From: an uncultured Deferribacterales bacterium
GTDB lineage: Bacteria; Chrysiogenota; Deferribacteres; Deferribacterales; Mucispirillaceae
Reading direction: 5' to 3'
Assembly (NCBI GenBank): GCA_947853665.1
Contig: CANTXF010000017.1
Span: forward strand, 62,001-126,000
Length of the DNA: 64,000 nucleotides
Made by a program: the position numbers and the translations under genes. Shown one piece after another: positions 21,872 to 54,996 of the stretch (within the stretch, counting starts at the first letter, position 1; each line of letters starts with the position of its first letter). The notes under the pieces are model-generated. The model was not told where the DNA came from. It saw nothing but the letters and a program-made list of their open reading frames with translations, and ran no database searches.

Positions 21872-22393
21872 GTGAGGCATATAATATCCATACTTGTGGA
21901 AGATAAATTCGGCGTCCTCGCCCGTGTGGCGGGCCTTTTTTCCGGCCGGGGCTATAACATCGAAAGCCTTACGGTAAACGTTACGGAGCGGCCGGAGGTC
22001 TCTATGATGACTATCGTCACCCGTGGTGACGAGCACGTTATAGAGCAGATAATAAAGCAGCTCAGAAAGCTGGTGAACGTGCTTAAAGTACGGGATCTTA
22101 CCTCTTTTAACCATATAGAGAGAGAGCTTGTGCTTATCAAGGTGTTCGTAAGCCAGAAAAACAGGGGAGACCTTTATAACATCGTGGGAACTTTCCGCGC
22201 CAAAGTTGTGGACCTGACGCCGGAATCCATGGTTATAGAGATAACCGGCTCCCAGGATAAGCTGGAGGCTTTCGTGGAGCTTGTAAGGCCCTACGGCATA
22301 ATAGAGCTTGTAAGGACGGGCCGCCTCGCCATAGGCAGGGGCGCCAGGGCCACTTCCGATATGGATAAGCCCAAAGGCCCGGCGAATTTATAA
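21872..22393 (+). CDS. ilvN: Acetolactate synthase small (regulatory) subunit
   Basis: The 173-residue product starts at GTG 21872 with GGGAGG just upstream. It has an N-terminal ACT domain (I-I-S-I-L-V-E-D-K-F-G-V-L-A-R-V, then G-R-G-Y-N-I-E-S-L) that binds valine for feedback control, and a C-terminal domain with R-P-Y-G-I-I-E-L-V-R-T-G. It activates IlvB and gives it valine sensitivity. The gene ends 11 bases before the first copy of the dispersed repeat. Confidence 0.95.
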   Translation: MRHIISILVEDKFGVLARVAGLFSGRGYNIESLTVNVTERPEVSMMTIVTRGDEHVIEQIIKQLRKLVNVLKVRDLTSFNHIERELVLIKVFVSQKNRGDLYNIVGTFRAKVVDLTPESMVIEITGSQDKLEAFVELVRPYGIIELVRTGRLAIGRGARATSDMDKPKGPANL

Positions 22394-22404
22394 AAAACGT
22401 CGGT

Positions 22405-22616
22405 TATCCCCTGATGCAGATAGTTATGGCAAATAGTTATAATCATGCTCCTTGACCGTCAAAAATAATAAGGCCTGCGCGGCAAAGCAAACTTAAGGGC
22501 AGGCCCTTTTAGACAGTGTCTTGACAAACGTTTAGGCCTTATTATCCATTGCCGTTAGCAAGCCGCCGTATTATAAATATTTTTCATAACTTTACATGAA
22601 TATATGTAAGGGGATA
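22405..22616. repeat. Dispersed TIR element, copy A (MITE-like), before ilvC
   Basis: This 212-bp element has perfect 8-bp ends (TATCCCCT at 22405-22412 and AGGGGATA at 22609-22616). Imperfect inverted similarity extends about 40 bp inwards, with AGTTATG then AAATA-TTATAAT on both sides. The 23 bp at 22558-22580 (GCAAGCCGCCGTATTATAAA plus TAT) recur unchanged in copies B and C. A central GGCCTGC/GCAGGCC hairpin is followed by CTTTT. No protein is encoded. TA at both outer ends would fit a TA target duplication, as made by IS630/mariner-type transposases. It separates ilvN from ilvC and must contribute to the ilvC leader. Confidence 0.8.
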
Positions 22617-22617
22617 G

Positions 22618-23706
<1,089 letters not shown>

Positions 23707-27075: not shown

Positions 27076-27300
27076 ATTTGCGGCTATACTCTTCTATATA
27101 ACATCGTGGGAAACCACCCTTTTCTGGACGGCAATAAAAGGGCGGGAGCCGTTTCATGCGCCGTCTTCCTTATGATAAACGGCCGCAGCCTTGATATTCC
27201 CGATGAGATTTTTATAAATCTGGTTATGGGCATAGCTTCCGGCAGGCTTAAAAAAGACGAAGCGGCGCTGACGCTGGCAAAGTATATATCCGCGCTTTAA
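27076..27300 (+). pseudogene. Truncated Doc/Fic-family toxin fragment
   Basis: The open frame (from 27076; first possible start GTG 27106) encodes the C-terminal half of a Doc-type Fic domain. It shows the active motif N-H-P-F-L-D-G-N-K-R-A-G, then a helix with V-F-L-M-I-N-G and I-A-S-G-R-L-K-K-D-E. Doc proteins phosphorylate EF-Tu and normally have about 60 more residues before this motif, plus an antitoxin Phd gene upstream. Both are missing, and the frame begins right after the leuA terminator. It is probably a relic. A decayed copy of the dispersed repeat begins 36 bases after its stop. Confidence 0.75.
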
Positions 27301-27335
27301 GCCGTGGCTTTTCTTCCGGCGGCTGTTTTCTGGTT

Positions 27336-27485
27336 AAATAGTTATAATAGCGGTTCTGCGGTGAGGCAGACCCATACCCCCAAAAAACACTGCCTTTGTG
27401 AGAAAGCTTTTAGGCGCTATTTCCTGCTGCCTTATTGTCAGTTGCTCTGTTATAAATGTTTTTCGTGACCTTACGCTGATATTTA
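27336..27485. repeat. Decayed copy D of the dispersed TIR element
   Basis: AAATAGTTATAAT at 27336-27348 is identical to the left inner part of copy A. The stretch CCTTATT...TTGC...TATAAAT-TTTTTC...ACCTTAC at about 27430-27474 follows the right half of copy A with gaps. The 8-bp outer ends are not recognisable. It is best read as an old, partly deleted copy. Confidence 0.5.
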
Positions 27486-27750
27486 CAGTGGCATATCCGC
27501 ATCCGGGATTATCTTAAATTTATCCTTAAAAATAGCGCTCTTTAGATAAAACGGCCGCGATTTTACGCCGTATACTTTCTGTATTAGGTCTTGCCGGCAG
27601 ATAAGGCGAATCATATTCTGTTATTGTCGCGATAATATGGCTTAATATCCGTCATCATACGCCTGCTTTTCGTTTTATTCTTATATTTCCTTTATTTTAT
27701 CAATTTAACTTGACAATTTTCGGGAGGGGTAAGATGTTTTTGAAAATTTC
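27486..27750. other. AT-rich non-coding region before the Mrr-like gene
   Basis: No gene is supported in these 265 bases. A TTGACA lies at 27709-27714 without a well-spaced -10. GGGAGGGG at 27722-27729 is a very strong ribosome site that best serves an ATG at 27734, which opens an 10-codon frame overlapping the start of the next gene. Confidence 0.45.
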
Positions 27751-28797
27751 ATGGAGGAAGGCTTAACGAATATATGGCTCCACAGAATTTCGCACGAAGG
27801 GGAAATATCGCGTCCGCTGCTTGATAACGGGTTTCTGTCAATCGGCTGGTCCGATTTAAGCTCGCGCGAATTTTTAAATGAAATTCGCGTCGGCGGCGAC
27901 TACGGCTGGAAACGTATGGAGGAAAAATTTAAAGAGGTTTATGAACATATATCGACAAACAGATATTCTTTTTGGCGGTTTACCGTAGATATGAAGCGGG
28001 GGGATTGGATAATAGTTCCCGGCCCGGGCAATTTCGGCATATACGAGGCGCTGGGAGAAGCCGTTCCCGTTTCGGAAATACCTCTGCCCGCCGGTTTTAA
28101 GGCTCGGAATGGCAGTCCGACGGCCATAAGGGACGGTCTGCTTCAGGCCGACTGTTACGACCACCCCTATGATTTGGGTTACGCGATTCCGGTAAAGGAA
28201 ATAGCCGCAAATATATCGAGATGGGACTATGCCGACGCTGATTTGACGAAGATTATGAAAGTGCGGCAAACGAATCTTGATATAACCGATTTGAAGAAAA
28301 GCGTGGAGAAAGCTTTAAAAGCTTTTAAAGAAGGAAAACCGCTTAATCTTTATTCCGAGCTTTTGGAAGAAGTCCGGCCGGTAATTCTCAATAAAATCCT
28401 TGAAATACATCACGCCGATAAGCTGGAGGAGCTTGTAAGGGAGTATTTTCAGAATCTGGGAGCGTCGTCCGTTATACTTTCGAAAAATGAAGCCGGCAAA
28501 AAGGGCGACGCCGATATAGCGGCTACGTTCGAGCGATTAAAGCTGATAATTTATGTTCAGGTAAAGAGCCACACGGGCGTTACGGACAGCTGGGCGCTTG
28601 AGCAGATAAAGGAGTACGGCGAATACCGCTCGGCGTTGGACGGAGACTACGACAGCGTATTGTGGGTCATAAGCACCTGCGATAAATTTTCCGGGGAGGC
28701 CGTGGCTTTGGCGTCCGAATACGGCGTGCGCCTGATAGACGGGCAAGGCTTTGCTAAAATGCTTTTTGACGCCGGATTTGCCGGGTTTGATATATGA
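27751..28797 (+). CDS. Mrr-like restriction endonuclease
   Basis: The 348-residue product ends in a PD-(D/E)xK-type domain of the Mrr_cat kind. A helix L-E-E-L-V-R-E-Y-F-Q-N-L-G-A begins near 224, followed by G-D-A-D-I (Asp253/255) and the catalytic Y-V-Q-V-K (Gln270, Lys272). The N-terminal half (1-200) with F-W-R-F, R-G-D-W-I-I-V-P and G-I-Y-E-A resembles a small beta-barrel base-recognition domain, but the family is not certain. Mrr-like enzymes often cut modified DNA, which suggests phage or foreign-DNA defence. No methyltransferase or specificity gene is nearby. Lower GC than the core genes and the relic-rich surroundings point to acquisition. Confidence 0.7.
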   Translation: MEEGLTNIWLHRISHEGEISRPLLDNGFLSIGWSDLSSREFLNEIRVGGDYGWKRMEEKFKEVYEHISTNRYSFWRFTVDMKRGDWIIVPGPGNFGIYEALGEAVPVSEIPLPAGFKARNGSPTAIRDGLLQADCYDHPYDLGYAIPVKEIAANISRWDYADADLTKIMKVRQTNLDITDLKKSVEKALKAFKEGKPLNLYSELLEEVRPVILNKILEIHHADKLEELVREYFQNLGASSVILSKNEAGKKGDADIAATFERLKLIIYVQVKSHTGVTDSWALEQIKEYGEYRSALDGDYDSVLWVISTCDKFSGEAVALASEYGVRLIDGQGFAKMLFDAGFAGFDI

Positions 28798-51150: not shown

Positions 51151-51255
51151 TAAGAAGCTTCTTTAATTTTACCGCGCGCCTTACGGCGTTTTCAAATATA
51201 TAGCCGCTCCGGGATTTCGGGGCCCATGGCGGGAGGTGCTGTAATATTTGGCTGA
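51151..51255. other. Gap between the DUF4340 gene and repeat copy B
   Basis: About 105 bases with no gene. A GGGGCCC-containing palindromic patch lies near 51217, without a U-run. Confidence 0.4.
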
Positions 51256-51465
51256 TATCCCCTTGGCCCAGATAGTTACGGAAAATAATTATAATAATGC
51301 TAATCTGTCGTCAAAAACATTCATAATAAGACCTGTACGGCAAAGAAAACTTAAACGTTTGCCCCTTTAAATAACGCCTTGCCAAGCGCTCATGTCCGGG
51401 TATCCATTGATGTGAGCAAGCCGCCGTATTATAAATATTTTCATTAATCTGTGTAAAGGAACAGG
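51256..51465. repeat. Dispersed TIR element, copy B
   Basis: TATCCCCT at 51256-51263 matches the left end of copy A, followed by GATAGTTACGGAAAATAATTA, here read from 51270. The 23-bp core shared by all clear copies is at 51416-51438. The right end (around 51457-51465, AAGGAACA) has drifted from AGGGGATA. The length is close to copy A. It lies between a plus-strand gene end and a minus-strand gene end, so it serves no obvious promoter. Confidence 0.72.
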
Positions 51466-51555
51466 TGTGTAATTTTTCGTCCCGCCGCGTCTCCGGGCGG
51501 TTTTCTTGCCGGGAGTTCGCGGCGGAAAGCGGTTTATTTTTCAGAAGATCTGCTG
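51466..51555. other. Short non-coding gap
   Basis: Ninety bases downstream of copy B and of the BOF gene (minus strand). Nothing recognisable. Confidence 0.4.
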
Positions 51556-54525: not shown

Positions 54526-54785
54526 TCATTTCAGGCAGGGGCGGCTGTTCCTGCATGACGCCTGCGGGGGCTTTACGTGGGAGGAAAGCGCCTTTTATTT
54601 AAAAGGTTTTTCGGTGGCTTCAGGGTATCGGCTTACGGAGAACGTTTTAATTGCAGGTATTCTTAACATGCGGATTGAAATTTTAGGCGGGCAGCTTGGG
54701 CTTTAGCAAGCGGTAGAAAAAAACATTTTGTTTAAGAGGCTTTGCGGGGATTTAAGGGCAAAGGCCCCGCAATGAAATACGCGGC
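54526..54785. other. Intergenic region after gpsA, possible gene remnant and hairpin
   Basis: These 260 bases carry an open frame without a start codon (from inside the gpsA end to TAG near 54705) whose translation includes G-G-F-T-W-E-E-S-A-F-Y-L-K-G-F. It may be a decayed gene. A perfect 8-bp hairpin lies at 54742-54749/54765-54772 (TTGCGGGG with CCCCGCAA) without a U-run. Confidence 0.35.
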
Positions 54786-54958
54786 TATACCTTTGCATGG
54801 ATTAACGTAAAGTTATGGAAAATATTTATAATACGGCGGCTTGCTTCAGGGCGATGAATAATAAGGCTGAAAGCGTTCGGCAAGGCGCTGTCTAAAAGGG
54901 CAAGGCCTCCGGAATCTGCATTATAATTATTTTCCGTAACTGTCTGTGTCAGGGGATA
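54786..54958. repeat. Dispersed TIR element, copy C (inverted relative to A), before ilvE
   Basis: This 173-bp copy is reversed: its AGGGGATA end (54951-54958) faces ilvE, and the other end reads TATACCTT (54786-54793). The 23-bp core is at 54822-54844 on the opposite strand. Both ends keep AGTTA(C/T)GGAAAATA-TTATAAT in inverted orientation, the clearest long TIR in the set. Compared with A it lacks about 40 bp of the middle. It ends 38 bases before the ilvE ATG. Confidence 0.8.
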
Positions 54959-54996
54959 GCAGCCATAAAAATATATTATTGGAAGGAGATCATACG

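Follow-up and report, generated by a model that had tools for sequence, protein, structure and literature searches.

A lineage-restricted MITE family with an 8-bp target duplication in a Deferribacterales genome

The repeats found in the window (the whole stretch of 64,000 nucleotides analysed here) are very probably copies of one non-autonomous MITE family that was moved in trans, spread in one lineage and has since decayed. It is a new, lineage-restricted orphan family of an already known kind. Its insertion produced an 8-bp AT-rich target duplication within a symmetric TA-W8-TA site, and not a duplication of TA, as the bare sequence suggests.

Copies and anatomy of the family

The 22-mer GCCGCCGTATTATAAATATTTT occurs exactly in copies A, B and C, in the last of these inverted, and at up to three mismatches has three matches in the window against 0.01 expected; the inner end motif has six, again against 0.01. 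This bears out the original prediction of several non-coding inverted-repeat copies in the window, and repeats A–D are, beyond chance, members of one family, complete or in part. While the copies stood, their predicted limits did not: the real ends lie 5–6 bp further out (GGCGGCTATCCCC... on the left, CGCAGCTATACCC... on the right), about 6 bp outside TATCCCCT, and the TA near both termini is internal to the element (GGCGGC-TAT... / ...ATA-GCTGCG).

Copy A (positions 22399–22622, plus strand; nhmmer 170 bits) is near full length, 224 bp, and lies between ilvN and ilvC. Its left flank TAAAAAAC (22391–22398), a probable target duplication, and its right flank AAAAAACT (22623–22630) are identical at 5/8 positions in strict register and at 7/8 if the right end is set one base inward (GAAAAAAC, 22622–22629), the duplication being ambiguous because of an A run. 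The neighbouring ilvC gene (22690–23706) has 83–84% identity to one sister genus; among the matches listed for named genomes, all distant homologues, the top one is a Geobacter MAG at 70%. Copy B (51250–51469, plus strand, 220 bp; 126 bits) lies downstream of a DUF4340 gene, with flanks TAATATTT / TAATTTTT identical at 7/8 positions. Copy C (54780–54964, minus strand, 185 bp) lacks about 45 bp inside one arm through an internal deletion, is matched by nhmmer as two collinear pieces (102.7 and 37.9 bits), and stands between gpsA and an ilvE-like aminotransferase class IV gene starting at about 54998; its flanks ATGAAATA / ATAAAAAT agree at 5/8 positions.

Copy D (about 27318–27501, plus strand) is a decayed relic, in line with its earlier description as a decayed relative. 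Its nhmmer match (16 bits, E 7e-4 over 27344–27496), taken by itself, is weak; both ends, read from the sequence, are present in degraded form (GGCGGCTG... and ...GGCATATCCGCA). About 240 bp off this copy, a lone right-end-like stretch, GCGGCTATACTCTTCTATATAAC (27081–27103), is possibly a further relic. Copy D also adjoins a gene (27751–28797) that encodes a restriction endonuclease domain of the Mrr type (PF04471).

The host genome is a draft of 2.43 Mb in 68 contigs. A BLAST search with copy A found at least 42 places at E ≤ 0.001 (the best 40 of 127 candidates were scored), and a genome-wide search with a 24-base end pattern at up to three mismatches yielded 106 matches against 0 for the reversed-pattern control, so that the family has about 100 members in this genome. 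A profile built from 14 paired copies and applied to 309 kb of stretches around the end-pattern matches recovered 111 non-redundant copies and fragments. Both ends and both flanks are present in 49 of them, the full-length copies, which measure 197–236 bp, mostly about 230.

The family consensus is 232 bp long. Its left end reads GGCGGCTATCCCCTAACGCAGATAGTTATGGCAAATAATTATAATA. Read inwards, its right end is of the type CGCAGCTATACCCTTACGCAGATTAATGTAAAGTTATGGGAAATATTTATAATA and, compared with the left end, carries about 8 inserted bases. On the opposite strand, too, the profile aligns with its own copies over nearly their whole length, and the element as a whole is therefore one imperfect palindrome. 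In some copies, e.g., at C34:76768 and C27:9357, the alignment reads as right-type inner arms at both sides, which suggests possible exchange between arms. The element is non-coding: it is too short for a transposase, and frame and length differ among copies. Taking the usual marks of a MITE, we find a length within 50–500 bp and no transposase gene, terminal inverted repeats alignable in opposite orientation, a target duplication of fixed length, and many copies at variable places, two of which are empty at the orthologous position in relatives. The MITE-like nature originally proposed thus agrees with a short, gene-less element with inverted ends in about 100 copies.

Target duplication and past mobility

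For the 49 full copies, left and right flanks were compared over many registers, and pairs in which the right flanks had been shuffled from copy to copy served as the control. With the corrected ends and an 8-bp register, flank identity is 0.72 vs. 0.42 in the shuffled set (z 12), and the per-position excess of identity forms a sharp step that starts at −8 and stops at −1. The duplication length was set at 8 because of this position-wise step; some overlapping windows reach slightly higher z. The two flanks are identical at 8/8 positions in 11 copies, at 7/8 or more in 22, and at 6/8 or more in 31, with chance levels between copies of 0.2% (8/8) and 7.4% (6/8 or more). The perfect duplications include AAATTAAA, TAGTATTA, AATAATTT and TTTAAAAA. 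Occupied sites are AT-rich and tend to a symmetric TA-W8-TA form.

These data overturn the TA target duplication and the IS630/mariner-type enzyme that had been suggested for the family. MITEs of the IS630/Tc1-mariner group with TA as the target would account for the TAT/ATA close to both ends and for the AT-rich surroundings. However, the inverted ends run about 6 bp past this TA, the flanks duplicate 8 bp and not 2, and the DDE_3 domain (PF13358) has no match in the genome. Refuted by the 8-bp register, this reading retains next to no probability, and the mechanism is corrected to an 8-bp-duplicating transposase.

The placement of copies was compared with that in other genera of the same family at two loci, ilvN–ilvC and gpsA–ilvE. 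The ilvN–ilvC gap is 296 bp long here vs. 39–91 bp, element-free, in the 13 same-family genomes with an ortholog; the gpsA–aminotransferase gap is 472 bp vs. 15–37 bp in one genus or 120–127 bp in the other (12 same-family genomes), and copy C explains 185 bp of the excess. Mobility had been proposed earlier on the understanding that conserved placement at the same genes would speak against it, and the opposite was found: at both loci the copies are absent from the same genes in relatives, and the sites are empty. The end model R1 has at least 42 matches in the host genome and none in 146 other genomes, 14 of them of the same family, under stricter filters by which weak matches may drop; the family was thus seen in one genome among the 147 searched. 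When 39 relatives were searched with a pattern, a single isolated match turned up, with two mismatches. Past mobility is strongly supported, because the tested gene neighbourhoods are tight and element-free in relatives, and the ends are absent from the 146 genomes.

A relative of the element was sought in phage, plasmid and viral collections, and none was found. A 23-bp match in an Acetoanaerobium record was dismissed, its E of 0.7 being at chance level.

The copies are concentrated between genes: 77 out of 80 well-scoring copies are intergenic, vs. about 79% coding sequence, with genes predicted by a simple longest-ORF rule and a copy taken as intergenic if mostly outside genes. Pairwise identity of copies has a median of 0.71 and a maximum of 0.88, and therefore no recent activity is visible; to judge from this divergence, the copies are old.

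In the scheme that we propose for the MITE family, a DDE-type transposase acting in trans would bind the inverted ends of the gene-less copies and make staggered cuts 8 bp apart in the target, at AT-rich and roughly palindromic TA-W8-TA sites that are mostly intergenic. We infer a cut-and-paste process of this chemistry, and a burst within one lineage, in which the MITE family would have spread in the host-genome lineage once this had diverged from the other genera of the same bacterial family; the copies would later have decayed through point mutation and deletion.

Candidate transposases and the fold of the element

As originally stated, there is no parent element in the window, and none was found in the host draft genome by the end pattern with pairing of ends. 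The transposase families searched in the genome (PF12762, PF01609, PF13358 and PF00872) include none with MITE ends, and a comparison of the ends of IS256 and IS1595 copies across the order likewise gave no element with them. The parent element was presumably lost or is unassembled. Contigs C1, C4, C5, C10, C15, C22, C23, C36, C55, C59, C60 and C62 start or end within a MITE copy, and the repeats account for some breaks in the draft assembly; since contigs break inside copies, near-identical copies, or a multi-copy parent, may be missing from it.

Two types of transposase can be considered as the driver of this MITE family. Target duplications of 8–9 bp are typical of IS256, and the 8-bp duplication of the MITEs falls within this range. 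The genome has one IS256-type transposase gene that appears intact, a 394-aa ORF on contig C16 (C16:253918–254964, locus L241). The ends of this element are GGAGCCTGTCCCTAATTTTGTGTAA... and GAGCCTGTTTTGAATTTTGTGTAA, also given as GGAGCCTGTCCC...TTTTGTGTAA, with a TSD-like 8-bp flank pair CAAAAATG/GAAAAAGG (6/8). By eye, its left end GGAGCCTGTCCCTAA is loosely like the MITE end GGCGGCTATCCCCTAA over the outer 16 bases. Yet a TTGTGTAA-type motif, which the MITE does not have, is present in the C16 ends as well as in most clear ends found for IS256 copies in the order, and the C16 locus gives no match to the MITE profile. Mobilization by an IS256-type (Mutator-like) transposase is thus a possibility that we regard as rather doubtful.

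Duplications of 8 bp, often AT-rich, are also typical of the IS1595, ISL3, IS66 and IS4/ISAs1-like families, several of which have ends starting with GG, as would suit the MITEs. On the other hand, the host genome has no IS1595 (PF12762), DDE_Tnp_1 (PF01609) or DDE_3 (PF13358) domain, and in the bacterial family the only clear IS1595 copy whose ends could be read, that of a relative (locus L274), has ends GGCTCTTGACTAGTATC that are unrelated to those of the MITE and have GG alone in common with them. We name an IS1595-type or other 8-bp-duplicating transposase as the driver tentatively, as a plausible guess. A still undescribed type of transposase, for which the target would be the symmetric TA-W8-TA site and the ends GGCGGCTATCCCC / CGCAGCTATACCC, and which would have generated about 100 fully palindromic copies in one lineage before being lost from it, is an unlikely driver.

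The fold of the element could also point to a maintained structured RNA or a cis-regulatory repeat (terminator, attenuator or promoter module) and not to a transposon relic. A well-preserved copy folds as a whole-element hairpin (z −7.4) and copy A as a single long hairpin (z −3.5); promoter-like pairs are commoner across the family than in a mononucleotide shuffle, the sole control, which makes them a lead at most. If the stem were selected, arms should pair better within a copy than across copies. However, arm pairing is 0.818 within and 0.820 between copies (37 copies; permutation p 0.81), so that no compensatory stem changes are apparent, which argues against a maintained RNA. RNAalifold gives 13 pairs only, of which two show a double change; the window contains no Rfam match, and the orthologous gaps of relatives manage without the element. 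Elements lie alike in tandem, convergent and divergent gaps (34, 13 and 11, respectively, of the copies with two flanking genes). With no preferred gene arrangement, and promoter-like matches in copy A barely above shuffles, a terminator or promoter module was rejected, and we consider the whole RNA or regulatory explanation very improbable.

In the best-conserved block of the element (22553–22581 in copy A, and equivalents in other copies), an outward-facing TATAAA/TATAAT is preceded, 17 bp upstream, by a TTGCCG-type hexamer; the block could serve as a promoter directed outwards or as the site where a transposase binds. The copies between same-strand neighbours (ilvN–ilvC, gpsA–ilvE) are natural cases in which a long hairpin may affect read-through.

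Relation to described elements

The family adds to this bacterial lineage a high-copy MITE with a well-defined symmetric 8-bp target; no searched relative carries the family. Within the host genome, it resembles the C16 IS256 insertion sequence in the AT-rich flanks of about 8 bp and, loosely, in the outer end; in contrast to the MITE, that element has a transposase and, at its inner end, the motif TTTTGTGTAA. The Correia elements of Neisseria and similar TA-target MITEs are likewise short palindromic intergenic repeats of high copy number, but they duplicate TA, whereas the duplication here is 8 bp.

The features of the element match the published description of prokaryotic MITEs, which are under 500 bp, with inverted ends, direct repeats fading with age, AT-rich intergenic sites and stable hairpins (PMC10969869). 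QMITE1 and QMITE2 of Coxiella burnetii, a different host, are similar by description only: the same review gives them 45–78 copies, a large decayed fraction, and many copies less than 75% identical (PMC10969869). By anatomy, the nearest case described there is Chunjie of Geobacter uraniireducens, 235 bp long with 38 copies plus 57 partial ones, the likeness being one of described anatomy (PMC10969869). Unlike Chunjie, the family studied here is old, with no recent insertion seen. Both share inverted ends, direct repeats, tens of mostly intergenic copies, size variants and many partial copies, and one Chunjie copy lies inside an operon, as copy A does here (PMC10969869).
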